Source: Arthrobacter woluwensis (GTDB taxonomy: Bacteria > Actinomycetota > Actinomycetes > Actinomycetales > Micrococcaceae). From it: DNA of 64,000 bases. Numbering within the stretch: the first letter of the stretch is position 1; each line of letters starts with the position of its first letter. Positions 18,812 through 47,079 of the stretch are shown here, one piece after another. A program made the translations under genes and the position numbers. The stretch spans positions 2,914,001 through 2,978,000 of the forward strand of contig NZ_FNSN01000003.1 in assembly GCF_900105345.1 (NCBI RefSeq), written 5' to 3'. A model generated the notes under the pieces. The model saw nothing but the letters and a program-made list of their open reading frames with translations, was not told the DNA's origin and did not search any database.

Positions 18812-19300
18812 TCAGGCCGCGGTGGACACGGCCTGACGCAGCGCGTCCTCCGCCGCCACCCAGGCGAGCATGGCGCATTTGACGCGGGCCGGGAACTTCG
18901 AGACGCCGGAGAGCGCGGCGGCATCGCCGAGTTCTTCGGGATCGCCCTCCACGGTGCCGCGGGAGCGCAGCACCGTGCGGAACTCTTCGATCAGAGTGGC
19001 GAGTTCGTCCACCGAGGAGACCTCGCCGGCCAGATCGGTCAGCATCGAGGCGGAGGCCATCGAGATGGAGCAGCCGTTGCCGAGCCATTCGAGCGATTCG
19101 ATGCGGCGTTCACCGTCGGCGCCGGTGACCGAGAGACGCAGCGTGATCTCGTCACCGCACACCGGGTTCAGCTGGTGGCACTGCCCGGTGCCCGCGGGCC
19201 AGGAGGTCTCACAGGCGGCGACTTCGCTCAGGCTCCCGCCGTGACGGGCCTTGGCGTGTTCCAGGATGGTCTGCTGGTACAGCGATTCGAGAGAACTCAT
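18812..19300 (-). CDS. sufU: SufU zinc-dependent sulfurtransferase (162 aa)
   Basis: Receives sulfur from the SufS cysteine desulfurase for Fe-S cluster assembly in the cytoplasm. The IscU/SufU fold has its metal/sulfur cysteines in NPVCGDEI, LGNGCSIS and FPARVKCAMLAW, with the SufU-specific insert TVLRSRGTVEGDPEELGD between the last two. Its ATG overlaps the sufS stop (TGATG at 19298-19302), so translation is coupled. The other suf genes are not in this window. Confidence 0.92.
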   Translation of the reverse strand: MSSLESLYQQTILEHAKARHGGSLSEVAACETSWPAGTGQCHQLNPVCGDEITLRLSVTGADGERRIESLEWLGNGCSISMASASMLTDLAGEVSSVDELATLIEEFRTVLRSRGTVEGDPEELGDAAALSGVSKFPARVKCAMLAWVAAEDALRQAVSTAA

Positions 19301-20586
19301 CACTTCACTCCGAAGAATCCGCGGACACCGGCGACGCCCTCGAGGAAGGCGTCCACCTCGCCCTCGGTGGTGTACAGGTAGGCGCTGGCGCGGGTCGACG
19401 CCGAGAGGCCGTAGCGCCGGTGCAGGGGCTGCGCGCAGTGGTGACCCACGCGGACGGCGATCCCCTGGGCGTCCAGGTACTGGCCGACGTCGTGCGCGTG
19501 CACGCCTTCCACGTCGAACGAGACCAGCGCGGCGCGCTCGACGCCGGCGGCCGGGCCGAGCGTCCGGACGCCGGGGATGCGGGCCAGGCCCTCGAGCATC
19601 CGCTGCGCGAGGACCTCCTCCCGCGCATGGACGCGATCCATGCCGGTCTCCATCAGGTACCGCGCGGCCGCGGCCATCGCGATGGCCTGCGAGACGGGCT
19701 GCGTGCCGGCCTCGAAACGCTGCGGAGCCGGAAGGTACCCCGAGTGTTCCATGGTCACGGTGGTGATCATGGAGCCACCGGTGGTCACCGGCGGCAGGGC
19801 GTCCAGCAGTTCCTGGCGGCCGTAGAGGGCGCCGATGCCGGTGGGACCGAGCATCTTGTGACCGGAGAAGACCGCGAAGTCCACGTCGAGGGCCTTCACG
19901 TCGAGCGGCAGGTGCGGCGCGGACTGACAGGCGTCCAGGACCACCAGGGCGCCCACCGCGCGGGCCAGGCCGACGAGGTGCGCCACCGGGTTGATGGTGC
20001 CGAGGACGTTCGAGACGTGAGTGAACGCGAGGACGCGGGTCCTGGCGTTGATCACGCGGGCGGCCTCGTCCAGGTCCAGGGTGCCCTCGTCGGTCAGCGG
20101 AATGTATCGGAGGGTGGCGCCGGTCCGACGGCAGAGTTCCTGCCACGGCACCAGATTGGCGTGGTGCTCCATCTCGGTGACGACGATCTCGTCCCCAGGG
20201 CCGAGCGCGAAGCGGCGCGCCTCGGGGGCGACCTCCCCCACGCTCGCGTTGGAGAAGGCGTAGGCGAGGAGGTTGAGGCCCGCGGTCGCGTTGGAGGTCC
20301 AGACGATCTCCTCCTCGCGCGCCCCCACGAACTCCGCCACCGTGGCGCGGGCGTCCTCGAAGGCGAGCGTGGCGTGGGCCGCCAGGGTGTGGGCGCCGCG
20401 GTGCACGGCGGAGTTCCGCTGTTCGTAGAACTCCTGCTCGGCTTCCAGCACGCTCAGGGGGTTCTGGCTCGTGGCCCCCGAGTCGAGGTAGACGAGCTCC
20501 CGCCCGTTCACCGGGTGTGCCAGGAGGGGGAAGTCGTTCCGGATCCGGAGGACTTCCACATCAGTCAGAGGGACGCCGTTGTTCAC
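19300..20586 (-). CDS. sufS: Cysteine desulfurase SufS (428 aa)
   Basis: Pyridoxal-phosphate enzyme that takes sulfur from cysteine to form a persulfide for SufU. The PLP lysine is Lys244 in [26 protein letters not shown] holds the cofactor Asp, EHHANLVPW the stacking His, and [14 protein letters not shown] carries the catalytic cysteine of group II desulfurases. Length is normal. The start is GTG 20586, with GGAGGTGG just upstream. It is first in a two-gene unit with sufU. Confidence 0.94.
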
Positions 20587-20663: not shown

Positions 20664-20735
20664 ACTACCTAAGTACCCGGCACCCCGAATTGCGTAGTCC
20701 CTACTCGGGCCTGGCGTTCCGGCGGCCCGTAGCGT
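20664..20735 (+). promoter_or_regulatory. gmd promoter with two ACTAC-type sites
   Basis: Two related 12-mers, ACTACCTAAGTA (20664-20675) and CCTACTCGGGCC (20700-20711), precede a -10-like TAGCGT (20730-20735). The second site overlaps where the -35 hexamer would be, the usual place for a class II activator. Similar sequences lie upstream of the sugar transferase gene at 40637-40786. Confidence 0.45.
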
Positions 20736-20770: not shown

Positions 20771-21814
20771 ATGGCGAGACGTGCGTTCATCGCTGGAATC
20801 ACGGGCCAGGACGGGTCTTACCTGGCCGAACTACTACTACTCAAGGGCTATGAGGTCCACGGTCTCATCCGACGCACCTCCGCGTTCAACACGGCCCGCA
20901 TCGATCATCTCTACGTGGATCCCCACGAGAGCGATGCGCGCCTCTTCCTCCACTACGGGGACATGGACGACGGCGCCCGGCTCGTCACGCTGCTGGCACA
21001 GGTCCAGCCGGACGAGGTCTACAACCTGGCCGCCCAATCGCATGTGCGGGTCTCGTTCGACGAGCCGATCCACACCGGCAACACCACCGGACTGGGCACC
21101 TCCCGCTTCCTCGAAGCCGTGCGGCTCGCCGGAGTGGACACCCGGTTCTACCAGGCCTCGACCTCCGAGATGTTCGGGGCCTCGCCACCGCCGCAGAACG
21201 AGGAGACGCCGTTCTCTCCGCGCTCCCCGTACGGCGCCGCGAAGGTCTACAGCTACTGGATGACCCGCAACTACCGCGAGGCCTACGGCATGTTCGCCGT
21301 CAACGGGATCCTGTTCAACCACGAATCCCCGCGGCGCGGCGCCACGTTCGTCACCCGGAAGATCACCCGTGCGGTGGCCTCCATCGCTTCGGGCGCGGCG
21401 GAGCGCCTCTATCTGGGCAATCTGGACGCCATCCGCGACTGGGGCTACGCCGCCGAGTACGTCGAGGGCATGTGGCGGATGCTGCAGGTCGATGCCCCGC
21501 AGGACTACGTCCTCGCCACGAGCACACCCACCACGGTGCAGCAGTTCCTGGAGTACGCCTTCGGGAGCGTCGGGCTGAACTGGAGGGACCACGTCGAGTT
21601 CGACGAGCGGTACCTCCGGCCCACCGAGGTGGACTCCCTCATCGGCGATCCCACGAACGCCCAGGTGGACCTCGGCTGGAAGGCGTCCGTCGGCGCGGAG
21701 GACCTGGCCCGCCTCATGGTGGCCCATGACCTGGCCGAGCTCGGCAGCCCCCGCGGGCACGTGGTGGACCAGGTGACTCTCCCGTCGTGGAACGCCAGCC
21801 TGGAACTGACATGA
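20771..21814 (+). CDS. gmd: GDP-mannose 4,6-dehydratase (347 aa)
   Basis: Converts GDP-mannose to GDP-4-keto-6-deoxymannose, the first step to GDP-fucose. Extended SDR fold: NADP-binding [15 protein letters not shown] at the N-terminus, the catalytic STSEMFG loop, and Tyr/Lys in [13 protein letters not shown] (near residue 153), plus the family signature [25 protein letters not shown] is eight bases before the ATG. The next gene starts inside its stop codon (ATGA), so the two are translationally coupled. It supplies a deoxyhexose to the exopolysaccharide locus. Confidence 0.95.
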
Positions 21815-22830
21815 GCACTCACACCGGGCTGGACACCCGTGACACCGCGGTCACCAGGGACGCCGGCCAGGACGGCACCGGCATCCTGGACCGGGACGCG
21901 CCGTTCTACGTGGCCGGGCACCGCGGACTCATCGGATCGGCGATCTGGCGGCGCCTCGAACGCGCCGGCTTCACGCACCTGATCGGGGTGCCGTCCTCCG
22001 AACTCGATCTGCTGGACCGTACGGCGGTGGAGGACTTCTTCGCCGAGCATCAGCCGCGCCATGTGGCCCTGGCCGCCGCCAAGGTGGGCGGGATCCAGGC
22101 CAACCACGACTTCCCGGTGGACTTCCTGAGCGAGAATCTCCGGATCCAGGGGAACGTCATGGACAGCGCGGTGCGGCACCGTGTCCACAAACTCCTCTTC
22201 CTGGGATCGAGCTGCATCTACCCGCGGTTCGCGCCGCAGCCGATCCCCGAGGACGCGCTGCTCACCGGCAAGCTGGAAGTCACCAACGACGCGTACGCGG
22301 TGGCGAAGATCGCCGGGATCCAGTACGTCAAAGCCGTGCGGCGGCAGTACGGGCTGCCCTGGATCAGCGCCATGCCCAGCAACCTCTACGGCCCCGGGGA
22401 CAACTTCCGGCCGGGCGTCTCCCACGTGCTGCCGGCGCTGATCATGCGGTACCGCCAGGCCCGCGACGACGGCGCGGCCACCGTCACGAACTGGGGCACC
22501 GGCACGCCGCTGCGGGAGTTCCTCTACGCGGACGACTGCGCGGACGCCTGCCTCTTCCTCCTGGACCACTACGACGGCGGCCGCCACCTCAACGTCGGAA
22601 CCGGCGCCGAGATCAGCATCAAGGACCTCGCGGCCCTCATCGCGGACGTCGTCGGCTACGAGGGCGAGACCGTCTGGGACGCCTCGAAGCCGGACGGGAC
22701 CCCGCGGAAGATGATGGACGTCTCCCGCCTGAGCGGCCTCGGCTGGCGGGCGCGGACCGGCCTGCGGGAAGGCGTCGAGCGCACCGTGCGGTGGCTCGAA
22801 TCGCACGAGGAGGAAGCACGGACGGCCTGA
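21811..22830 (+). CDS. fcl: GDP-L-fucose synthase (339 aa)
   Basis: Epimerase/reductase that turns GDP-4-keto-6-deoxymannose into GDP-L-fucose. The SDR nucleotide motif [12 protein letters not shown] is preceded by a 30-residue Asp/Thr-rich extension not usual in the family. Catalytic features are LGSSCIYPR (Ser/Cys), Tyr/Lys in [11 protein letters not shown] (near residue 164), and the substrate loop [12 protein letters not shown] 21811 overlaps the gmd stop. With gmd it forms a two-gene GDP-fucose operon. Confidence 0.94.
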
Positions 22831-29484: not shown

Positions 29485-32400
29485 TCAGCGCGGCGTGGTG
29501 ACCAGGTAGTCCGTCACGCGTGCCTGAACGGGTGCATTGGTGGAGGAGCCGGACAGCGTGGTCCGCAGTGCGGGCGAGCCCGCCGCCTGCAGTCCGGCCG
29601 TGCCGTCCGTGGTGCTCAGCTGCCATGCGCCGGGTTCGGCGCCACTGCTGTCCCAGGCTTTCGCCTTGAGCGTCGTGGTGCCGGAACCGGAGACCAGGAA
29701 CTTCACCTGGAGCGTGTTGCCGGCGGCCGGGGTGGCCGCCAGGACCTGGGTTTCGGGGACCAGGACGGTCTCCGTTCCCGCGCTGTCCACCCGGATCAGG
29801 GAGAGGTACACGCGGCCCGCCGCGATGTACCGGACCTTGGCCCGGTAGGCGCCCTGGCCCGCGATGGTCCGGGAGTCCACGCTCACGTAGACGCCACCGC
29901 CCGTCGCCGGCTTGTCCAGGGACAGACCCAGGCTGACCTCCGTGTCCTGTGCGGAGAAGGAGTTCAGCGCCGCGCCGGTCTGGTTGCCCGCCGTCAGCAT
30001 GGTCAGGGTGCCCTGCCCGCCGCTGACCGCGTACCGGCTGGCCGTGCCGCTCACCGTCCACGCGCCGCCCTTGTCCGCCGTGCCCCAGCCGTTGGTGACG
30101 GTCCGCGCGAAGGTGTCCTTCGCCAGGACCGTGCCGGCCGGGACCGCATTGCTCAGATCCAGCTGCTTGCTGGCGCTGGCCGTGCCGCCGCGGTTGTCCG
30201 TCACGGTGACCGTGGCGGTGTACACGCCAGGGGCCGAGTACGTGTGGCTCGGCGTGACGCCGGTGCCCGTCGTGCCGTCCCCGAAGGTCCAGGCGTAGGA
30301 GACGATGCTCCCGTCCGAATCGCTCGAGGCCGAGGCGTCGAACGCGCAGGCGAGCTGCGTGCAGGACGCGGCGGCACTCGCCACGGGCGGCTGGTTGGCC
30401 GGCTGCGGCGCGACGGTGACGGTGGTTCCGGCACTGTTCTGCGCGCCGTCGTTGTCCGTGACCGTCACGGTGGCCGTGTACGTTCCGGCCGCGGCGTAAC
30501 TGTGCTGCGGTGTGGCGCCGGTGCCCGTCGTGCCGTCCCCGAAGGTCCAGGCGTAGGAGGCGATGGTGCCGTCCGGATCACTCGAGGCCGAGGCGTCGAA
30601 GTCACAGACCAGATAGGTGCACGACGACGTCGCGCTGGCCACCGGCGGCTGGTTCGGCGCCGTCGTGGTCACCGTCTGGCTGGTCACCGTGGTGGCCCCG
30701 AGATTGTCCTTCACCGTGAGCCGCACGTTCCACGTGCCCGCCGAGGCGTAGGTGTGACTCGTGTTCACGCCGGTCCCCGTGGCTCCGTCACCGAAGTCCC
30801 ACGTGTAGGAGGTGATGGTGCCGTCCGGATCGTTCGACGCCGAGGCGTTGAACGAGCAGGCCATGAGCGTGCAGGACGGCGTGAAGGCCGCCACGGGCGC
30901 CTGATTGCCACGGCCCAGCGAGTTGTGCCAGGCCACCTGTGAGGCGTCCAGGGCCGAGGAGTACACGGCCACCTGGGACACGCGTCCCACGATGCCCTGG
31001 TTCAGCGGCTGGTTGGGCCAGGCGCCGAGGTTGTTCGCACCGATCCGCCAGTACCCGGTGTAGCCCTCGGCACCGGCCGCCGGGGACGAGCCCTGACTGA
31101 CGCCGTCGACGTAGAGCGTCGCGTTGCCGCCGCCGAGCGTGCCGACCAGGTGGTGCCACTTGCCGTCGTTGACGGCGCTGCCGCCGCGGACGGTCACCAC
31201 GTAGCCGGGGTAGACGCCGAAGACCGGACGCCCGCCGCTGTCCACGTAGAGGTGGCGGTCGTACTGACTGCTGCTCCCGCTCGACGTGTTCCCGAAGCCG
31301 ACGACCTTCCCGCCCAGGAGACTCGTGGTGTTGATCCACGCCTCGACGGAGAACGTGTTCGGTCCGGAGAGCTGCACCGAGCTGTTCAGGCTCGCATTCG
31401 AGTTCTGGATGTTCACGGACTTGGAGGTGGCGTTCGGGCCGGCGGAACCGAGCTGGGTCCGGTTGCTGCCGGTGAGGTTGTTGCCGGCGATCGCATCGTG
31501 GGCGGACGTGCCGCTGCTCTCATCCGTGGGCCAGAAGTACTGCGCCCCGTCCGCCACCACATTGTCCGAGTAACCGGCGTTCTGGCTGGCCACGGTGATG
31601 TAGGGGGTCCAGTAGGACGTGACCACATTCGTGCCGTCCGTGACCTCCACCCGGTACGCGACCTGGCTGCCCGGGGACAGACCCGGGTCCGTGATGCGGT
31701 AGCTGGGGATGTCCCAGAACCGGGAGCGGACCGTGCGGACGTCCAGCGGGGTGCTGGAGCCGTTGCGGAACACCTTGTAGTTCAGGTATTCGTCGTCGTT
31801 GTCCAGGGTCGCGGTGACCCGGACGTCCACTTGGCCCGCCCGGAGGCTGGCCGCCGACGGGGTGGCGGGCTTCTTCGGCGGGGCGTCGCTCTCCGAGCCG
31901 AACATGGTCAGGCCCTGCTGCCCCACCCCGTTGACCGTGGTGAAGTCGCCGCCCACCCAGAGGTGCTGGCCGTCCGTGGCCATGTCCCAGGGGCCGACGT
32001 AGGTGCTGGGCCCGGCGTTGGTCTGCGGGTACCAGCCCTGCACGTCGCCCGTGTCCGGCTTCTCGGCCAGGAGGAACCGGTTCGGGCCCTGCGGGAAGCC
32101 GCCCATGGAGCTGCAGTCGTGGGCGTGGGAGCCCTTGTAGAGCCACTCCCCCACGAAGACGATCGCCTCCGTGGCGCCCAGGCAGGTGTTCTTCCAGTTG
32201 AGCTGGCCGGTGCCGATCGACGCGGACCAGGTGCCGTCGAAGCAGCCGCCGCCGTCGCCGGCATTCGCGAAGTACACATTGTCACCGTGGGTGATGATGT
32301 CCTCCACCTTGGTCCAGCAGGAACCGGTCCGGTCCGGCAGCGTCGACGCCGCGGGGAACGGGAGCAGGGCACCCTGCTGGGCGTCGACGAGGGCCACGCT

Positions 32401-33090
32401 TTCACGGTGCACGCTGCCCACGTAGGCGAACTTGCCGCCGAGGTAGACCTTGCTGCCGTCCGGGGACGCCTTGACGGAGTTCACATCGGCGTCCGGTGCG
32501 GGATTCCACGGCAGGAGCGCGCCATCGCTGGCCTGCACGGCCGCGGCCCTCGGACGGTCGACACCGGCCACCTGGGTGAAGCTGCCACCGAAGTAGATGG
32601 TCGGACCGGCGACGTCGATGGTGCTGACGCGGTACGCCACGTACGGCTTGAAGGCCGGGCGCAGAGTGAGGCTCGCGGTGTCGATGGCGGCGATGCGGCC
32701 ACGGGCCGCCCCGTAGATCTGGGTGAAATCACCGCCCGCATAGACGGTGGTGCCGTCCGCGGACGCGGTGAGGGACCAGACCTTGCCGTTCGGCTGCGGC
32801 GCGCTGCCGAGCAGGTCACCCGTGGCGGCGTCGAACACGGCCAGATACGTCCGCGAGGTCTCCGAGACCCCGGCGGCGGCGCCCGGTGGGCGGACCGTGG
32901 TGAATTCGCCGCCCACGAAGACCTTCCCGGCCGCATACGCGACGGCACGGACGGTGGCATTGGTCTGCCAGGTCGGAGTGGACAGCGCCGACAAGGTGGT
33001 CTGCTTCGCCCACGCGGGGGCGGCGGTCATGCCCAGGACCACGGCCACCGCAGCGATTCCCACGGCCAGACGCCTGAGGATGCTTTTCAT
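29485..33090 (-). CDS. Large secreted protein: beta-propeller, LamG and three PKD domains (1201 aa)
   Basis: The signal peptide LRRLAVGIAAVAVVLGMTAAPAWA is followed by a propeller of repeats such as GKVFVGGEFTTV, TTVYAGGDFTQI, TIYFGGSFTQV and HLWVGGDFTTV (residues about 45-400). A fibronectin-like region (about 420-510), a LamG/concanavalin-like domain (about 540-730: FSVEAWINTTSL, KWHHLVGTLGGG), three PKD domains (about 740-1000: YTWDFGDGATGTG, YAWTFGDGTTGTG twice, each preceded by a C-x4-C pair), and a final beta-sandwich follow. No sortase motif or membrane anchor is seen. It is probably an extracellular polysaccharide-binding or matrix protein, in the middle of the EPS operon, six bases after the polymerase gene. 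Confidence 0.85.
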   Translation of the reverse strand: MKSILRRLAVGIAAVAVVLGMTAAPAWAKQTTLSALSTPTWQTNATVRAVAYAAGKVFVGGEFTTVRPPGAAAGVSETSRTYLAVFDAATGDLLGSAPQPNGKVWSLTASADGTTVYAGGDFTQIYGAARGRIAAIDTASLTLRPAFKPYVAYRVSTIDVAGPTIYFGGSFTQVAGVDRPRAAAVQASDGALLPWNPAPDADVNSVKASPDGSKVYLGGKFAYVGSVHRESVALVDAQQGALLPFPAASTLPDRTGSCWTKVEDIITHGDNVYFANAGDGGGCFDGTWSASIGTGQLNWKNTCLGATEAIVFVGEWLYKGSHAHDCSSMGGFPQGPNRFLLAEKPDTGDVQGWYPQTNAGPSTYVGPWDMATDGQHLWVGGDFTTVNGVGQQGLTMFGSESDAPPKKPATPSAASLRAGQVDVRVTATLDNDDEYLNYKVFRNGSSTPLDVRTVRSRFWDIPSYRITDPGLSPGSQVAYRVEVTDGTNVVTSYWTPYITVASQNAGYSDNVVADGAQYFWPTDESSGTSAHDAIAGNNLTGSNRTQLGSAGPNATSKSVNIQNSNASLNSSVQLSGPNTFSVEAWINTTSLLGGKVVGFGNTSSGSSSQYDRHLYVDSGGRPVFGVYPGYVVTVRGGSAVNDGKWHHLVGTLGGGNATLYVDGVSQGSSPAAGAEGYTGYWRIGANNLGAWPNQPLNQGIVGRVSQVAVYSSALDASQVAWHNSLGRGNQAPVAAFTPSCTLMACSFNASASNDPDGTITSYTWDFGDGATGTGVNTSHTYASAGTWNVRLTVKDNLGATTVTSQTVTTTAPNQPPVASATSSCTYLVCDFDASASSDPDGTIASYAWTFGDGTTGTGATPQHSYAAAGTYTATVTVTDNDGAQNSAGTTVTVAPQPANQPPVASAAASCTQLACAFDASASSDSDGSIVSYAWTFGDGTTGTGVTPSHTYSAPGVYTATVTVTDNRGGTASASKQLDLSNAVPAGTVLAKDTFARTVTNGWGTADKGGAWTVSGTASRYAVSGGQGTLTMLTAGNQTGAALNSFSAQDTEVSLGLSLDKPATGGGVYVSVDSRTIAGQGAYRAKVRYIAAGRVYLSLIRVDSAGTETVLVPETQVLAATPAAGNTLQVKFLVSGSGTTTLKAKAWDSSGAEPGAWQLSTTDGTAGLQAAGSPALRTTLSGSSTNAPVQARVTDYLVTTPR
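30250..30860. repeat. Three PKD-domain DNA repeats
   Basis: Three copies of a block encoding FGDG-type PKD cores recur about every 258 bp (near 30260, 30518 and 30775). The first two are close to 90% alike by eye over 80 bases; the third is more diverged. This suggests recent in-gene duplication. Confidence 0.7.
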
Positions 33091-38776: not shown

Positions 38777-40564
38777 TCAGTACGCACCTTCCGCTGAGAC
38801 CATGGCTTTCGCGGTTCGCCACATGATCATGAGATCGCCCATGAGCGACCAGTTCTCGACGTAGTAGAGGTCAAGCCGGACCGATTCCTGCCACGACAGA
38901 TTGGACCGTCCGCTGATCTGCCACAGCCCGGTGATCCCGGGTTTGATGAGGAGCCGGCGGTGTGCGGGCTGCTCATAGGCCTCGACCTCCCGGCGGAGCG
39001 GCGGACGGGGTCCGACCAGGCTCATCTCGCCGGTCAGCACGTTGAACAGCTGGGGCAGCTCGTCCAGCGAGTAGCGGCGCATCCACTTCCCGCACCGGGT
39101 GACCCGGGGGTCGTCGTGCAGTTTGAAGAGGGGTCCTGAGCCCTGGTTCCCGCCGCTCAGCTCCGCGAGGCGGAGGTCGGCGTCGGTGGTCATGGACCGG
39201 AACTTGTGCATCCGGAACGTGGTGCCGTTGCGGCCGATCCGCTCCTGCGAGTAGAAGACCGGGCCGGACGAATCCGCCTTCACCACCACGGCGAGGAGCA
39301 GGAGGACCGGCGCCAGGATCACGAGCGCCAGGATGCCGACCGTGAGGTCCACGAGGCGTTTGAGGAGGTGGCGGGTTCCGGTGAACTGCGGCAGCTCCAC
39401 GTGCATGAGAGGCATGCCCTCGACGGGACGGTAGTGGACGCGCGGTCCGGCGATGTCCGTCAGGCGTGAGGCCAGGACCAGCTCGGTGGAGAGGTCCTCG
39501 AGCCGCCAGCCGAGTTCGCGGAGGCGATGCGAGCCGCCCGGGAGCGTGCCCGCCACGATCACGATGCTCGCTCCTGCGCGGCGGACGAGCTCTTCGATGT
39601 CGTCCAGGGTGGACATCACGGGGATGCGGTACCAGGGCTTGCCGTACGAGGCTTTCCTCGGCAGCGAGTTGAGCGCCACCCCGGCCACCCGGTACCCGAC
39701 GGCGGGATTGTCCTGGAGCTGCAGGATCACCGATTCGACGTCCTTGGTGCGTCCGATCACCACCACGTCCTGCAGGTACTCGCCGCGGCGACGGCGGCCG
39801 TTGAGATCGCGGCGCCAGAGCCAGCGGGACAGGAGCAGCAGGAGCAGGCCGCACGGGAACGCGGTCAGGAAGAAGCCGCGGAGGACACCGCCCTGCACCA
39901 CGATCAGCACCGCCGCGGCGAGCACGAAGACGCGGGTCGCGGAGTGGGCCAGCGCCTTGTACTCCGAGGCGCCGAGCCCGAGGACCCGGGCGTCCCGGCT
40001 GTGCCCGAACTCCAGGTCCAGGCACCACAGGACGATGATGCCGAGGCTCACCCAGAAGTAGGTGTCCCCGAGTTCCCAGGCGTCGAATCCCCAGCGGAAG
40101 GTGTGGGCCAGGAACACGGCGGCCACGATGCACGCCCAGTCGCTGATTCGCAGCTTCCGCCTCAGGCCGCTCTCCCAGGAGGCCGCTCCGGCAGTGGTGA
40201 CGGTGCGTGCCACCCGGTGGGCGGTGGCGCTCTTCACGACGCCGGCCGGCACGTCGAGCTCCTCCAGCCCGCCGCCTGCGCTCACGCGGCGCGCGGTGGC
40301 CCGGTGGGCGGCCGCACGGTTCGCCAGGGCCTGGTGTGCCGACGCCCAAGGGGTGGTGCGCCCTCGGAAGAGTGAGGGGGCCGACGGTGGCAGGGGGGTA
40401 GCCTCGGTCTCGGAAGGCTGTTCCACCGCCGACCCCGCATGTGGAGCCCGCGCCTGACGGCCGGGCAGTGTGATCGCACCACCGCTGCTGTCGATGGACC
40501 GCACAGGACTGACCCGGGACGGGTTCTCGCCACGATGCGCCACCGGGGATGAAGACCGGGACAT
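38777..40564 (-). CDS. EPS-initiating polyprenyl sugar phosphate transferase (595 aa)
   Basis: WbaP/CpsE-like enzyme that loads the first sugar phosphate on undecaprenyl phosphate. After a 140-residue disordered Arg/Ala-rich N-terminus come four hydrophobic segments (about residues 145-265), a Rossmann-like CoA-binding-type domain (VVVIGRTKDVESVILQLQDN), another membrane helix (LTVGILALVILAPVLLLLAVV, near 406), and the catalytic bac_transf domain: GPVFYSQERIGRNG, HKFRSM, LDELPQLFNVLTGEMSLVGPRPP, LIKPGITGLWQISGRS. It is the first gene of the nine-gene minus-strand operon (40564 to 26665). Upstream lie ACTAC-type motifs shared with gmd. Confidence 0.92.
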   Translation of the reverse strand: MSRSSSPVAHRGENPSRVSPVRSIDSSGGAITLPGRQARAPHAGSAVEQPSETEATPLPPSAPSLFRGRTTPWASAHQALANRAAAHRATARRVSAGGGLEELDVPAGVVKSATAHRVARTVTTAGAASWESGLRRKLRISDWACIVAAVFLAHTFRWGFDAWELGDTYFWVSLGIIVLWCLDLEFGHSRDARVLGLGASEYKALAHSATRVFVLAAAVLIVVQGGVLRGFFLTAFPCGLLLLLLSRWLWRRDLNGRRRRGEYLQDVVVIGRTKDVESVILQLQDNPAVGYRVAGVALNSLPRKASYGKPWYRIPVMSTLDDIEELVRRAGASIVIVAGTLPGGSHRLRELGWRLEDLSTELVLASRLTDIAGPRVHYRPVEGMPLMHVELPQFTGTRHLLKRLVDLTVGILALVILAPVLLLLAVVVKADSSGPVFYSQERIGRNGTTFRMHKFRSMTTDADLRLAELSGGNQGSGPLFKLHDDPRVTRCGKWMRRYSLDELPQLFNVLTGEMSLVGPRPPLRREVEAYEQPAHRRLLIKPGITGLWQISGRSNLSWQESVRLDLYYVENWSLMGDLMIMWRTAKAMVSAEGAY

Positions 40565-40636
40565 TGAGACCTCATTTGTGGTTCTTGAACTGCCCTTTCA
40601 GTCAAGTACCCCGGCCGTGCGCAGGCCCGCGGAGCG

Positions 40637-40786
40637 ACTACCTGCATCTGGCTCCGGTCTCCCCGCCACGGTCCCCGGAGGAACTCCGGGATTACCCGAG
40701 TAGTGCCCGCACCGGATGCCGTCGGCCCTCCGGTTCCCCGTGGTCCTACCTGATTCCGGACCGCGCGGTCACCGACTACTCAGGTA
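40637..40786 (-). promoter_or_regulatory. Cluster of ACTAC-type sites upstream of the EPS operon
   Basis: The 299-base gap between the EPS operon and the LuxR gene has no ORF but holds four related 12-mers: ACTACCTGCATC (40637), TACCCGAGTAGT (40693-40704, inverted), CCTACCTGATTC (40745) and ACTACTCAGGTA (40775-40786). They share ACTAC followed by CYKRR-like sequence with the two sites in front of gmd. Closer to the gene (40584-40604) is an imperfect inverted repeat TTGAACTG/CAGTCAA. The LuxR-type regulators next door are the natural candidates to bind. Confidence 0.45.
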
Positions 40787-40863
40787 CACCGTGAAGAGCG
40801 CGTGGTGGAAGGCAGGGTGTGAGGGCCGTATGTTTCAGGGCCGGCCCGGCCCAGGGCGGCCGA

Positions 40864-43536
40864 TCAGTCCTTGAAGACGTCCGCCAGCTGGCGCCGTGAC
40901 GAGACGCCGAGCTTCCGGTACGCGCGGCTGAGGTGACCGCCGACCGTCCGGACGGAGAGGTGCAGGAGCGCGGCGATCGTCTCATCCGAGTGTCCGTCCC
41001 GCGCCAGCCTGGCGATCTCCTGCTCACGTCCCGTGAGTCTCGGGGCCCCCGGTTCGTCCGGCATCCCGCCGTCACCGGACAGCTCGGCCACAGTGCTGAG
41101 CGCCTGGCGGGCGTGGTGGGCCGTGACGCCGTCGCCGTTCCGCCGTGCAGTGTCCGCCGCCGTCCGGTACAGGGACCGCGCGAGCGCCGTATGGCCGCGC
41201 ACGTCGAGTGAACGGCCCGCCTCGAGGATCTGCTGGGCGTCCGGGACCTGGGCCGCCTCCAGGAAGCGGGCCATCGCCTCCGCCCAAGGACCGGTGAGCC
41301 CGGGGATGATGGCTTCCAGCCGCTCGCGTGCGCCGGGATGTCCGAGACCCAGCAGCATGGACCAGGCCGGCGCCGCCAGACCGAGGAAACCCGCCCGCGC
41401 CATGGTCTCGGCCGTGTCGGCCATGGCCGCCGCGCCGGGTCCGTCGGGGTCGAGCTCCGCGTCCCCGCACGCCAGCATCAGCGACGACATGACTTGGCCG
41501 TAATAGAAGGTGCAGCCGGGTTCGTAGCTCTCCCGCAGCTCACGGGCCAGCTCGACCCGGCCCGTCTTGGCCGCCGCCATGTACGCCTGCGCCACGAAGA
41601 AGCCGCGCAGCCGCTGGGGATCGTTGATCTTCAGGTTCTCCAGGCCGGCCAGCAGGGGCTCCAGGCTCGCGGCGTACTCCCCCTGCAGCCCGAGATTGGC
41701 GCCCGTGATCAGGCTCGTCCCACCGCCGAACGCCATCGCGGCGCCCGTGGCGTCGATCCGGGTCAGCGCCACCAGTTCCAGCGCGGCCTGCGGGCTCCCG
41801 GCGGCGAGGGACACCATGAGTGCCGTGACGATCACGGTCTCCGGCAGGAAGAACACGTCGAGGCTCTCGTCGTGCCGGAGCGCGAAGGCCTCCCCGGCAC
41901 GACGCAGCGCCGCCTCGGAATCGCCCAGGACCGTGAGGCGCTCCGCATCGAGGGACAGGGCCAGGGTCCGGTCGATCAGGGCCTGCGGCGAGTCGTCCCC
42001 CGCGGTGGCGTCGAGGAGGGATCCGATCAGTCCCTCCATCGCTGACAGGTGGCCCTGCTGGTTGGCCGCCAGGGCGTCCAGCACCACGGCGCGCCGCCGG
42101 AGCGCCGCGCAGGTGGCGCCGCCGTCGTCGTCGTCCCCGTCCTCCGTGGCGGCCAGCGCACGGAGCCTCCGCGCCTGCCCGCTGATGCCCGACGACGGCA
42201 GCCCGGCGGCGATGGTGGTGGCCGCCTCCAGGAGGGACACCCGCAGCTGGGCCACCTGATCGGCCAGGAGCCAGGGCGCGGCGAGACGCTCCCGGATCCG
42301 CCGGTACTCGCCCTCGTTGAAGTCCAGCCGGGCCCTCACCGCCTCCGTCCACGCCGCGTGGGCCGTTGCGGGCACGGCGCCCAGGAACCTCTCGGCCAGG
42401 TCCGCGTCGAAGTGCTTGCACGCCAGGGTGGCCGCACGCAGCAGCTGCTCCGGTGGCACGGACATCCCGGAGTCGAGCAGCCAGCGGGTCCGCTGGAGGA
42501 GCACGAGGGGCACGTCCACGTCACCCTCGAGGTTCTCCAGGTCCTCCAGGATCGCGCGGCTCAGACTGTGCGGGATCAGGGAGCGGACCACCTCCCCGTA
42601 CACCGGGTTGGTCATCCGGACCCGTTCGGGGTCGCCGTCCTCGCAGCGGACGAACCCTTCGTCCAGAAGGGTCTGCAGGGCCTCCGTGCCGAAGCGGGCC
42701 TCGAGCACCTCGAGCCGGAGGGTGCCGCCCAGCGCCACGGCATTGAGTGCGTGATGCGATTGCAGGCTCAGGCTGGCGAGCCGTTCCTCGACGATCGCGT
42801 GCAGCCCCTCGCCGGACCACGGCTCCTTGGCGGTGGCCACCCACACCTCGCGCCGCAGCGCGATGCCCCCGTTGCGGCGGGCCTCGGAGAGCAGGAGATG
42901 CAGGAGCATGGGACTCCCGCCCGAGTCCTGCCAGAGCTTCCACTCCAGACCGGGCAGCAGCGGCGCGCCCAGAGCCTCCCGGGCGTAGCTGCGCGTGCGC
43001 TCGCGGTCGAGCGGTTCGAGGCCCACCTCCTCGGCCAGGCCCATTCCCCAGAGTTCGCTGAGGGGCCCGGACAGAGGGCGCCGGGCGTCATAGGACGCCA
43101 CGAGGGCAATGTCCCCCTCCATCACCAGGGAGGCGAAGAGGTCGCTGCTCGCAGGGTCCAGGGAGTCCGCCTCATCCACGACCACCACGGGAGGCGGCCC
43201 GTCCGAGTCCCCGCCCAAAGCCTGGCGTTGGGCCCGGAAGTGCGCCCGGAGCACCTTGAGGGCAGGGGTGGGGTTGAGCGACAGGGCGCCCAGGGAGTCC
43301 ATGCCGCGCAGCACGGCGAGCACCCCGTAGTTGACGAGGGTGAGGGCGGGCGTGCCGTGCAGCGAGAGCACGGGGCGCGTGGCGGAGAGGGTTCCGAAGA
43401 GCCGGCGCAGCAGCGTGGTGACGCCCATGCCGGGTGCGGCGGCCACGAAGACGGCGGGCACCTCGTCGGCGGTCAGGAGTCTGAGCACCTCCGCCAGTTC
43501 CGGTTCCCGGCCGAACGGCCGCGCGATGTCATTCAT
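40864..43536 (-). CDS. Large LuxR-family ATPase regulator, degenerate P-loop (890 aa)
   Basis: LAL/MalT-like layout: N-terminal AAA ATPase, long alpha-helical (TPR-like) middle, C-terminal LuxR helix-turn-helix (LTGREQEIARLARDGHSDETIAALLHLSVRTVGGHLSRAYRKLG, about residues 825-870). Walker B VVVVDEADSLD is present, but the P-loop reads APGMGVTT (residues 34-41), with valine where the catalytic lysine belongs, so ATP turnover is doubtful. Its start lies 8 bases inside the upstream LuxR gene, so the pair is coupled. It probably controls the adjacent EPS operon. Confidence 0.85.
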   Translation of the reverse strand: MNDIARPFGREPELAEVLRLLTADEVPAVFVAAAPGMGVTTLLRRLFGTLSATRPVLSLHGTPALTLVNYGVLAVLRGMDSLGALSLNPTPALKVLRAHFRAQRQALGGDSDGPPPVVVVDEADSLDPASSDLFASLVMEGDIALVASYDARRPLSGPLSELWGMGLAEEVGLEPLDRERTRSYAREALGAPLLPGLEWKLWQDSGGSPMLLHLLLSEARRNGGIALRREVWVATAKEPWSGEGLHAIVEERLASLSLQSHHALNAVALGGTLRLEVLEARFGTEALQTLLDEGFVRCEDGDPERVRMTNPVYGEVVRSLIPHSLSRAILEDLENLEGDVDVPLVLLQRTRWLLDSGMSVPPEQLLRAATLACKHFDADLAERFLGAVPATAHAAWTEAVRARLDFNEGEYRRIRERLAAPWLLADQVAQLRVSLLEAATTIAAGLPSSGISGQARRLRALAATEDGDDDDGGATCAALRRRAVVLDALAANQQGHLSAMEGLIGSLLDATAGDDSPQALIDRTLALSLDAERLTVLGDSEAALRRAGEAFALRHDESLDVFFLPETVIVTALMVSLAAGSPQAALELVALTRIDATGAAMAFGGGTSLITGANLGLQGEYAASLEPLLAGLENLKINDPQRLRGFFVAQAYMAAAKTGRVELARELRESYEPGCTFYYGQVMSSLMLACGDAELDPDGPGAAAMADTAETMARAGFLGLAAPAWSMLLGLGHPGARERLEAIIPGLTGPWAEAMARFLEAAQVPDAQQILEAGRSLDVRGHTALARSLYRTAADTARRNGDGVTAHHARQALSTVAELSGDGGMPDEPGAPRLTGREQEIARLARDGHSDETIAALLHLSVRTVGGHLSRAYRKLGVSSRRQLADVFKD

Positions 43537-46366
43537 GATCGGGCGCTGGCTGTCCTGCGGGGGTGGTGTCCGACAAGGCGGCGGACAAGGAGTCGAGTTG
43601 CTGTCGCGAGGTCACGCCGAGTTTCGCGAAGGCCTGATAGAGATGGCCCTCCACCGTGCGGACCGAAATGCCGATCCGGCGCGCGATGTCCCGGTTGCCC
43701 AGGCCCTGCTCGGCCAGCCGCGCCACCTGCAGTTCCCGGTGGGTGAGATGACCGCCGTGACTGACGGAGACCAGGGTCCGGTTCACGAGCCCGCCGCTCT
43801 CGGCCGATTGCAGGTGGGCCCGCGCCGACGCGACCGAGAGACTGCTGGCGTTCTCCTTCGCCAGCTCGAGCGCGACGGCGGCGCACCGGTACTCGACCGC
43901 CTGCAGCTGAAGCTTCTCGGCGGCGGTGGCCGCGTGCAGCGCCTCCTGCGGATCACGGTTGAGGACCGCGGACGCCCAGCCCGCGGTGATGGCGCCCATG
44001 GCCCCCTGACGTTGCATCCCGGACTCCCGGACCGCCTCGATCTCGCGGTGGTTGTTGTAGTACTTGGCGCCGAACAGACTGAGCGACGCCGCGGTGAGAC
44101 GTCCCGCGTCAAGGTCCTCGAGACCTGAGCGGACCAGCGTCCGGGCCGCTTCGAGGTCGTTCATCGCGAGGTGGGCCATGTGGACGAAGAACCCGGTCAT
44201 GAAGCGGTTGGTCCAGCTCATCGCCGTTTCGATCCGGTCCAGTCGGAGGAGCAGGTCCCGGGCGGCATCCTCGTTGCCGGCCGAGGCCTGGGAGAAGGCG
44301 AGCGCCGCGAGTGCCACGCACAGGTAGCCGTTGGGCCGCTCCGCCTCCAGCTGTGCGATCGAGGACGCGAGACTCTCGATGGACTGATCGGACTTCCCCG
44401 CGAAGCAGTAGGCCAGACCGACGCCGAGTTCCATGACACCGCCGCGGAACATGGCGTCCTGGCCACTGGCCTCCAGAAGCTCCTGAAGTTCATCGACGCA
44501 CTCCACCCAGCGGCCGCTCCAGATCAGGGCGAGCACGCGCCCTTCGAGGTGGATCTCGCGGACCTTGTAGTCCTGCGGCGCCCGGCGCAGCCGCTCCACG
44601 ACCTCTCCCGAGAGCCGCACGGCGTCGTCCTCCCGGCCCATCACCGCATGGCACATGACCAGGAAACTGCCGCAGACCAGACGCATCTCCTCGCTGCTCG
44701 CGGGCGAGGCCCACACAGCCTCCAGTTCGGGCCCGACGGTGCGGAAGTCCCCGCTGTGGAAGCGGATCTCCAGGCCTGCCAGCAGGAGACGCTCGGCGAC
44801 GCTGAGGTGACTGCCGTCGCCGGCCGTCCGGGTCCAGCCGGTGCGGTTCTCCTGTTCGAAACGGCTGATGAGCGCCTCCAGCGTGGCGACCTCGTTCCAA
44901 GCGGCCTGCTGGTCCCCGAACAGTTCCAGGTGGCACCGCACGCGGGCCTGCTGGACCATCGCCGCGACGGCCAGGGAGCCGGGGCCCGGGGCGACGGCCA
45001 TGAACGCCTCGACGTCGACCGGGGCGATCACGGCCCACGCCTTCTCGGCTTCGGCCAGGGCGAAGTACGCGGTGGCCAGGAGGAAGCGGGCTTCCACGGC
45101 CCGCGGGTCGTCGTCCGGGAAGTCCCGCAGCACCCGCACGGTGAGCAGGGGCCGCGCGTTGGCCAGAGCGTGATCGGCGATGCCCAGACGGAGCCCGGTG
45201 TCGAGCTCCTGCCCGGAATCGAGAAGCCATTGTCCCAGCACCAGGAGTTCCGACGATTCGAGCTCCATGAGCGAACCGCCGGCGGCCAGGTTGATCTCGG
45301 AGAGCAGCTCCCCACTGGCCTTCTCGTGATTTCCGACCCTGATGGACTCGGCCAGGAAATAGTCCTTCAGGCTCACATGCCGGTCTCTGGAGGTCTCGAC
45401 GAGCAGGTGCCCGCGTTCTTCGAGTTCCACGAGGGTCTTCACCCCGACCACCGCGGCGGCCAGCCGCCACGGCGCCCGGTGGAGCAGTGCGATCTTGACC
45501 AGCGCCTTCTGAAGATCTTCGGGCTCACGCTGGAGGCGCGCCGCCATGAGCCGTGCCACCGGTCCTCGGGGTTCGATGGCCAGAGGATGGGTGGAGATCC
45601 AGTGCCCGGACTGGAGTTCGATCCGGCGCTGCTCGACCTGTTCGCCGAACAGGGCCTGCATGGTCAGCGCGGAGCGTCCGTGGTGCTGCAGGAGCGCGCT
45701 CAGGGCCGCCTCGGAGATCGGATGTCCGGTGGACTGGAGGATCAGCTGGCGGGATTCGCTCCGGTTGAGCGGCGCCATGCGGTGCTGGACGATCAGCCCG
45801 TCCCGGACGAGCCAGCCGAGGCTCGCGTTCACCTCTTTGCCGCGTGGCGCGGTGGCGAGGAGTTTGCTCCGTCCGGAGAGCACCAGGTGCACGATCACGG
45901 ACAGCGAAGCGCTGTCGATGCGGTGGATGTCGTCCACGAACAACAGGGTGGTGCGCCCCCGGGCCTCTTCGGCGATGGCCTGGCTCAGCGGCGGGATGAC
46001 TTCGGCGGGCGCCCGGTCGGAACCATCCGGTTCGGTGCTGTCCGGGATACGGTCCAGGTACTTGAGGAACACGCCCAGCGGCTTGCGGCGCAGCGCCTGG
46101 GTTCCGGAGAGGATCACCACGTGGATGTCCGGCCGAGACCGGGCGAATTCATAGCCGAGTGAGGATTTGCCGCTGCCTTCGGGACCTTCCAGGAGCATGC
46201 CCCGCAGATCGGGGTCCTGGATCATGGCGTCCACCGTGGGGATCAGGCGCCGGTGTGCCACACCGGACCACTTTCTCCGCTCGACCGCGCCGAGAACCTT
46301 CCTCCATGTGGAGGGAGCTGCGGACAACGCCAAGGTTGGCGTGTGGGCAGTACCGAATGTACTCAC
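43529..46366 (-). CDS. Large LuxR-family ATPase regulator, intact P-loop (945 aa)
   Basis: Same layout as the downstream gene. Walker A is GPEGSGKSS (near residue 61-69), Walker B LLFVDDIHRID (near 135), then helical repeats (EARFLLATAYFALAEAEKAW and similar), and a C-terminal LuxR helix-turn-helix LTHRELQVARLAEQGLGNRDIARRIGISVRTVEGHLYQAFAKLG. The start GTG 46366 is preferred because AGAGG lies about eight bases upstream; a GTG three codons earlier overlaps that site. First gene of the two-regulator operon; the pair may act together, one partner supplying ATPase activity. Confidence 0.85.
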   Translation of the reverse strand: MSTFGTAHTPTLALSAAPSTWRKVLGAVERRKWSGVAHRRLIPTVDAMIQDPDLRGMLLEGPEGSGKSSLGYEFARSRPDIHVVILSGTQALRRKPLGVFLKYLDRIPDSTEPDGSDRAPAEVIPPLSQAIAEEARGRTTLLFVDDIHRIDSASLSVIVHLVLSGRSKLLATAPRGKEVNASLGWLVRDGLIVQHRMAPLNRSESRQLILQSTGHPISEAALSALLQHHGRSALTMQALFGEQVEQRRIELQSGHWISTHPLAIEPRGPVARLMAARLQREPEDLQKALVKIALLHRAPWRLAAAVVGVKTLVELEERGHLLVETSRDRHVSLKDYFLAESIRVGNHEKASGELLSEINLAAGGSLMELESSELLVLGQWLLDSGQELDTGLRLGIADHALANARPLLTVRVLRDFPDDDPRAVEARFLLATAYFALAEAEKAWAVIAPVDVEAFMAVAPGPGSLAVAAMVQQARVRCHLELFGDQQAAWNEVATLEALISRFEQENRTGWTRTAGDGSHLSVAERLLLAGLEIRFHSGDFRTVGPELEAVWASPASSEEMRLVCGSFLVMCHAVMGREDDAVRLSGEVVERLRRAPQDYKVREIHLEGRVLALIWSGRWVECVDELQELLEASGQDAMFRGGVMELGVGLAYCFAGKSDQSIESLASSIAQLEAERPNGYLCVALAALAFSQASAGNEDAARDLLLRLDRIETAMSWTNRFMTGFFVHMAHLAMNDLEAARTLVRSGLEDLDAGRLTAASLSLFGAKYYNNHREIEAVRESGMQRQGAMGAITAGWASAVLNRDPQEALHAATAAEKLQLQAVEYRCAAVALELAKENASSLSVASARAHLQSAESGGLVNRTLVSVSHGGHLTHRELQVARLAEQGLGNRDIARRIGISVRTVEGHLYQAFAKLGVTSRQQLDSLSAALSDTTPAGQPAPDHE

Positions 46367-46497
46367 CTTTGACACCTCTCATGAGCAGTCGCCCCCTGAA
46401 GACCTGCGACTGACCACGATGCCCCCTGCTCGTTACGTTGAACGATACCAGCGAGCCGGGAGGAGGAGAAGGGACTTGAGGCCCGTATTTCCGGTGT

Positions 46498-47079
46498 CTA
46501 CGACGGCGAGTGGAACCTCTGCTGAGCGGCCACCAGACCGGAGCCCACGAGCTCCTCCACGGCGTCCGCGGCGGAGTCCAGGAGGAACGGCAGATCCTTG
46601 CGTTCGGTCGCGGTGAAATCCTTGAGCACGTAGTCCGCGGTGTCCATGCGGCCCGGCGGACGGCCCACGCCGACCCGCACGCGCAGGTAGTCCTTGGTGG
46701 CCAGGGCCTTGCTGATGTCGCGCAGGCCGTTGTGCCCGCCCTCTCCCCCGCCGAGCTTCAGTTTCACGGTGTTGAAGGGGATGTCGATCTCATCGTGGAC
46801 GGCGATCACGTGGTCCGGCTCGATCCCGAAGAACCGGCTCAGGGCCGACGTGGCGCCGCCCGAGAGGTTCATGTAGCTCATCGGCTTGGCGAGCAGGAGC
46901 TTCGGCCCGCCGATGCCCAGCCGGCCCTCGGCCAGCTGGGCGCGGCTCTTGTGGACGCTGAACCGCGCGCCCATCCGCTGAGCCAGCTCATCCAGGACCA
47001 TCTGGCCCACGTTGTGCCGGTTGCCCGCATACTGCGCCCCCGGATTGCCCAGTCCGACCACCAGCCATGTTTCGCTCAC
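46498..47079 (-). CDS. pth: Peptidyl-tRNA hydrolase (193 aa)
   Basis: Releases tRNA from peptidyl-tRNA that drops off ribosomes. Signatures: [18 protein letters not shown] (Asn11 and the catalytic His of NRHNVG, near residue 22), [21 protein letters not shown] and [13 protein letters not shown]. Length is normal. Gene order pth-rplY-prs-glmU on one strand matches other actinobacteria. Confidence 0.96.

Follow-up and report, generated by a model that had tools for sequence, protein, structure and literature searches.

The gmd gene in the stretch of Arthrobacter woluwensis DNA analysed here (64,000 nucleotides, hereafter the window) is preceded by short ACTAC-type strings that recur about 20 kb away, upstream of an initiating sugar transferase gene (ST). 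An earlier note had taken them for binding sites of a small regulon that joins GDP-fucose supply with polymer assembly. This raises the questions of whether the strings are operators at all, which protein would read them, and whether they tie together separate loci. What emerges is an operator set that is genuine, conserved and linked to genes of LAL type (large ATP-binding LuxR) and that serves a single EPS island, which corrects the regulon idea in part.

Boxes at the gmd and ST promoters

All six strings of the earlier note are present at the positions it gave (20664-20675, 20700-20711, 40775-40786, 40693-40704 inverted, 40745-40756 and 40637-40648). The boxes described in this study are as follows.

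20664..20677, + strand: palindromic box at gmd, ACTACCTAAGTACC (core search; identical in two congeners)
20700..20711, + strand: proximal box of the gmd promoter, CCTACTCGGGCC, located at -35 (string match, congener alignment, spacing)
40598..40609, - strand: half-site GTACTTG overlapping TTGACT, upstream of ST (half-site search, congener alignment)
40637..40648, + strand: half-site ACTACCTGCATC (string match, congener alignment)
40693..40704, - strand: palindromic box ACTACTCGGGTA (extended to the complete 14-bp palindrome in two congeners)
40745..40756, + strand: half-site CCTACCTGATTC, more weakly conserved (string match, congener alignment)
40775..40788, + strand: palindromic box ACTACTCAGGTACA (string match, core search, congener alignment)

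The half-site consensus is STACYYR, and the palindrome ACTACYYRRGTAGT consists of two overlapping half-sites; six half-sites at five places precede the ST operon. Loose string matching gave nothing above chance as a test of these boxes: with up to three mismatches, ACTACCTAAGTA has 5 matches in the window against 3.4 expected and ACTACTCAGGTA has 10 against 10.9, neither of them significant. The palindromic core was therefore used instead. Its form TACYYRRGTA matches three times in the 64-kb window, where 0.06 matches are expected and none of 100 shuffles reaches three. Across the entire genome (3.86 Mb), the strict core CTACYYRRGTA has three exact matches, and all three lie at the gmd and ST promoters; the reversed pattern, used as control, has 16. 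With one mismatch allowed there are 129 matches (control 629), so exclusivity holds for the strict core only, and weaker regulon members may exist. The claim that the motifs occur in just two regulatory regions thus stands for the strict core and fails for the half-sites, whose background density across the window is about 1.1 per kb.

One island, two convergent operons and a pair of LAL genes

The genes around the two promoters were identified as follows.

19300..20586, - strand: sufS-family cysteine desulfurase gene, divergent from gmd, the far border of the island (TIGR01979 above cut-off; synteny)
20771..21814, + strand: gmd, GDP-mannose 4,6-dehydratase, 347 aa (TIGR01472 above cut-off)
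21787..22830, + strand: GDP-L-fucose synthase-like epimerase (best match NF047922, 430 bits, below the cut-off of 500)
38777..40564, - strand: initiating sugar transferase ORF, whose 5' part corresponds to an upstream ORF kept separate in other genera (TIGR03025 above cut-off from residue 141 on)
40864..43536, - strand: LAL1, 890-aa LuxR-HTH regulator (Pfam GerE, AAA_16)
43529..46375, - strand: LAL2, 948-aa LuxR-HTH regulator (Pfam GerE, AAA_16)

The gmd operon begins at 20771 on the + strand and extends to about 26604; the ST operon begins at 40564 on the - strand and extends down to about 26665, so that their last genes face one another near 26.6 kb. The gmd promoter lies in a gap of 184 bp between sufS and gmd, the ST promoter in one of 299 bp between LAL1 and ST. 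Between them they encode Gmd, the fucose-synthase-like epimerase, glycosyltransferases, a WecG/TagA-type transferase, a Wzy_C-domain protein and the initiating sugar transferase. The ST operon also contains the gene for a PKD / laminin-G-like protein of 1201 aa (29485-33090, - strand). Because the operons converge, the two shared promoters bound one EPS island; what had been described as promoters of distant operons are the island's two ends, and a link across two distant loci is ruled out.

The proposed small regulon keeps its shared, conserved sites and loses its separate loci. Its GDP-fucose component is seen only in this genus, since gmd in genus g38 (found in four of 19 genomes searched) lies within an operon and has no box array. 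A wider regulon in this species is not supported: the genome contains no further exact palindrome, and no other promoter with a box, 20-22 nt and a hexamer is common to the three island-bearing species.

The LAL1 and LAL2 genes lie directly upstream of the ST promoter and point in the same direction as ST. Both products have a C-terminal LuxR-type HTH (PF00196, E 6e-12 and 3e-14 in LAL1 and LAL2) and an AAA_16 match above cut-off, the N-terminal nucleotide-binding domain. LAL2 has a Walker A motif (GxxxxGK[ST]) in the form GPEGSGKS at residue 64; LAL1 has no such match and no Walker-A lysine, its N-terminus reading APGMGVTT. Given that missing lysine, one might speculate that the two proteins work together. 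The LAL1 HTH matches solved HTH chains of the GerE/VraR type. Separately, a conserved GTACTCA-like site at the start of LAL2, considered for autoregulation, falls within the coding frame as read.

Conservation and a fixed chromosomal slot

The three cores recur with the same 20-kb spacing in two congeners (G001 and G002), so the sites are conserved in related species. Further exact cores in these genomes comprise four copies each of one identical sequence, which lies within 23S rRNA at the single locus checked in each genome; in G002 an additional core adjoins a gene read from its ORF as ArsR-like. In the ST gap the surroundings of the sites have diverged while both palindromes and the GATGCAGGTAGT half-site are kept, the CCTACCTGATTC half-site less so. 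The gmd gap is conserved nearly throughout, so conservation alone proves less there. In a third congener (G003), ST has a 46% paralog but no ortholog, the search for gmd gave nothing at the threshold applied, and the genome contains no exact core.

The order prs, L25, pth, LAL2, LAL1, variable content, sufS is kept in the three further genomes compared; the window gene that we take to be pth is the one at 46498. The slot between the pth/LAL pair and sufS (19300-47809 here; loci L299, L300, L301 and L302) holds an island, a box array with a leader RNA, or nothing. It contains the EPS island in this species and the island-bearing congeners. In G003 it is empty: the LAL1 relative lies 133 bp from sufS, and the 501-bp stretch behind LAL has no half-sites. 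In genus g10 (G190) a box array occupies the slot together with the leader RNA treated further on, and a sufS ortholog (72-74% identity) comes next in 11 of 18 LAL-adjacent regions. In g38 (G183) the slot comprises a box array, the leader RNA, ST and other genes, and sufS follows after about 20 kb. The LAL proteins of G003 are only 33% identical to LAL1/LAL2, against 87% for pth and 91% for sufS; in the island-bearing G001 the LAL proteins reach 90-93% identity. The type of regulator thus changes together with the boxes and the island, as expected of a cluster-specific regulator.

Half-sites follow LAL genes in other Micrococcaceae

In genus g38, relatives of LAL1 (32-38% identity) adjoin relatives of ST (53-58% identity). 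A motif-free count of 6- and 7-mers in 13 LAL-ST gaps (12 from g38, one from g42, one near-identical twin dropped) placed TACTCG (in all 13, 1.2 expected) and AGTACTC (in 10, 0.2 expected) among the most enriched; AAGGTCTC, also enriched, is part of the leader. The STACYYR motif, taken from this genus, was then counted in LAL-to-leader gaps from independent genera. Of 30 regions, 14 such gaps were pooled (13 g38, one g42); those set aside were the twin, the regions of our genus, two that lack GGTCTC, those of g10 and a number of others from g38/g42. The 14 gaps contain 80 half-sites, against a mean of 8.5 and a maximum of 19 in 1000 shuffles and 7 for the reversed pattern. The 18 LAL-adjacent regions of g10 contain 64 (11.7 expected, reversed 12). 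A further 22 leader-RNA regions with no LAL detected next to them contain 51 (10.9 expected, reversed 12), six of these regions having none.

The full palindrome ACTACYYRRGTAGT occurs in seven of 295 family genomes, at one site each, whereas the reversed pattern has 77 sites (table summed). Four of the seven lie in a LAL-ST gap (G001, G002, G109 and G195); of the others, one is near a gene that we read as a glycosyltransferase, one falls within a sensor-kinase-like ORF and one coincides with the beginning of an unrelated gene.

Regions upstream of ST were compared by the presence of a LAL-like gene in the locus, using 79 of 80 named loci (one was too short). Those with LAL (n = 11) contain 51 half-sites in 8.25 kb (10.3 expected, reversed 16). 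Those without (n = 68) contain 68 in 51 kb, slightly above shuffles (38.9 expected, maximum of 200 shuffles 62) and below the reversed pattern (103). Density is thus 6.2 per kb with LAL and 1.3 per kb without, a difference of about five times. LAL genes without an adjacent leader RNA, meant as a negative control, are followed by 42 half-sites in 5.5 kb (11 regions, 6.6 expected); a twelfth region, from G003, has none. Boxes also precede sufS in g10. Since boxes occur behind LAL genes that are not next to ST, and before this sufS, the association with LAL extends beyond EPS: the boxes are a feature of this LAL group as a whole and not of ST alone.

That half-sites go with the presence of LAL, and boxes and island with LAL type, makes it probable that the LuxR proteins encoded at 40864-46375 read the boxes, as had been proposed; binding itself is what we infer from this. 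Instead, an unlinked LuxR/NarL-type response regulator could read them, with the LAL genes being neighbours for some other reason. Because the LAL1 HTH resembles VraR/GerE-type domains, a regulator of that kind could recognize similar DNA. We consider this unlikely, given that half-sites follow LAL genes in several genera, that the two ST sets differ in density as they do, and that LAL type and boxes were lost or replaced together in G003.

Promoter geometry

In 33 of 55 promoter regions, gmd included, exactly 22 nt separate a YACYYR box from a downstream T[A/T]NNNT hexamer; the next best spacings were 23 (12 regions) and 29 (nine), all others having 0-5. For each region the first box at spacing 22 was counted, and chance probably accounts for a few of the 33. 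The 55 were taken from 71 regions, the excluded ones comprising, among others, leader copies without an upstream half-site (L262, L264, L267, L269, L273, L275). The 33 come from four genera (our own, g38, g42 and g10) and are not independent, regions of one genus being alike. At gmd the arrangement is TACTCG, 22 nt and TAGCGT (20702-20735), with the following predicted element.

20730..20735, + strand: probable -10 hexamer TAGCGT, exactly 22 nt after TACTCG (spacing; common to three congeners)

The pattern TACTCGKG-N20-TWNNNT is not enriched in four genomes of the genus (six matches, eight for the reversed control), and gmd is the only place with it that is common to the three island-bearing species. 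In this genus ST lacks a promoter box with the 22-nt spacing.

A box at this distance from the predicted -10 fits activation from a site overlapping -35 (class II). The gmd site had been said to overlap -35 in just this way; that applies to the second, degenerate site at 20700-20711, with its spacing of 22, and not to the palindrome at 20664. A LAL that binds the boxes and represses both operons would also account for boxes far upstream of the putative -10, of which there are several, and the sign of control is not readable from sequence. A fixed distance from proximal box to -10-like hexamer, however, is needed by activators bound at -35 and not by repressors, and repression is accordingly quite improbable. 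That the boxes are a chance or compositional artefact of comparing two AT-richer gaps, as the looser strings with their three mismatches might suggest, is contradicted by genome-wide exclusivity, conservation, enrichment in independent genera and the fixed spacing, and deserves almost no credence.

A structured leader RNA behind the ST promoter

Downstream of the ST promoter lies a conserved 72-nt element.

40370..40441, - strand: structured leader RNA with two stacked helices, GAGACC in the loop and a C-run in an internal loop (model R1 match, 82.1 bits; covariation)

In an alignment of 13 sequences not fitted to the structure, 99.6% of the cells of its 20 pairs are paired and eight of the 20 pairs are changed on both sides (seven according to RNAalifold). 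With 73 distinct sequences, in an alignment fitted to the structure, 15 of 20 pairs have double changes; none of 500 shuffles reaches any observed measure, and structures slid along this alignment are only 27-62% paired. The model built from the 13 sequences matches 144 of 295 Micrococcaceae genomes at E <=1e-4, in 18 of 32 genera and with up to five copies each. An order-wide sample gave matches at E <=1e-6 in 21 of 396 genomes, all 21 of them Micrococcaceae; two Leifsonia loci also match the model. Rfam has no match in nine leader loci at E up to 5, and on the stretch from the window it gave two chance-level matches to eukaryotic families only. We regard the leader as a candidate new RNA family.

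The element lies about 430 nt behind the LAL match here and about 200-650 nt behind it in the 18 g10 regions. ST relatives are found downstream in 25 of 70 RNA-bearing loci (tblastn, L211-L280) and SufS in 11 of 70. Among six downstream proteins scanned, there was one each with AAA_16 (LAL-like), ANTAR, polysaccharide deacetylase, aminotransferase class V and CoA_binding_3 domains, and one with none. Leader copies L261, L263, L266, L268 and L271 precede look-alike genes; the one whose product was scanned, at L261, encodes an ANTAR (RNA-binding antiterminator) domain. Another subtype (L262, L264, L267, L269, L273, L275) has a longer inner helix and no LAL half-sites in the 450 nt upstream; in L264 and L269 it precedes a similar short protein of unknown type.

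Several identities were considered for the leader. As an intrinsic terminator the hairpin would lack its T-run in this genus. In some sequences the loop GAGACC could pair with a GGTCTC that lies upstream, close to where the leader starts, but this is not general: of 36 further leader loci, only 14 have GGTCTC in the preceding 300 nt. An antiterminator of the LoaP/RfaH type is not supported, as no NusG paralog was detected: each of the 295 genomes has one NusG-domain match, though a very diverged paralog could escape this search.

The leader lies inside the upstream ORF in all 18 regions of this genus and g38/g42, and at five other leader loci no comparable ORF covers it. The stop codon of this ORF overlaps an ATG or GTG in 12 of 15 regions from other genera; in the present genome the ORF is fused in frame to ST. 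Since the TIGR03025 match begins only at residue 141, the annotated N-terminus of ST may not be transferase sequence. The upstream ORF (40562-40564 and downstream, - strand) encodes a conserved E-P-A-A-x-K-P-S-E-T-like peptide.

Proposed control of the island

We think it probable, on comparative sequence grounds, that the boxes are operators of one or both LALs (40864-46375) and serve to switch on both convergent operons of the island. One or both of the tandem regulators would bind STACYYR half-sites. At gmd, protein bound to the proximal box at -35 would recruit RNA polymerase as a class II (MalT-like) activator, the palindrome upstream would be a second site, and upstream palindromes generally would hold further protomers. 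Both ends of the island would then be switched on together, one providing nucleotide-sugar supply and the other assembly.

More tentatively, and as a possibility that falls somewhat short of being probable, control may be a two-layer switch. A LAL activator at STACYYR boxes, 22 nt from -10, would act first, and the new leader RNA family would then make a second decision within that transcript, at the level of elongation or translation. The pth-sufS slot would exchange its island, boxes and LAL type as a unit, and the RNA would have its own regulon and a ligand or RNA-binding protein. If so, such control of Micrococcaceae polysaccharide islands has not been described before, and the leader RNA, which also stands before LAL-like, ANTAR, SufS and polysaccharide-deacetylase genes, would define a regulon of its own.

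Comparison with known systems

LAL regulators are common in actinobacteria, and the literature searched yielded no operator for a LAL that controls EPS. The box, its spacing and the target of LAL control are here derived from comparative evidence. The same searches, which covered few subscription papers, turned up work on LALs of antibiotic clusters and on leader RNAs of other groups, and nothing on the STACYYR box or on this leader RNA. The leader is widespread in a common soil family, covaries strongly and has no Rfam match, and so offers a route to a possible new class of cis-regulatory RNA.

Structured elements in the 5' leaders of polysaccharide and EPS operons are represented by epsC/EAR and JUMPstart (PMC2864571). 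The present leader differs from both in having no Rfam match, and the genomes have no detected NusG paralog of the kind that RfaH/LoaP systems need.

NarL/FixJ-type response regulators are related to LAL1 through the HTH. NarL recognizes a TACYY-like half-site that resembles the boxes here. LAL1 and LAL2, however, have no receiver-domain match, and here two half-sites overlap to give a core of 10 bp.

The SARP-LAL regulators known from antibiotic clusters (PMC5930380) likewise combine a large cluster-situated regulator with repeated operator units. In contrast, the Pfam matches of LAL1/LAL2 include no SARP-type domain, and the cluster is of a different kind.

LAL1 and LAL2 resemble MalT and other LAL activators in architecture, being of about 900 aa with an AAA_16-type N-terminus and a C-terminal LuxR HTH. 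MalT uses several sites per promoter, one of them at -35 with fixed spacing to -10, as here. What sets the present system apart is a STACYYR box with palindromic pairs, tandem regulators, a LAL1 without the Walker-A lysine, and an EPS island as the target.
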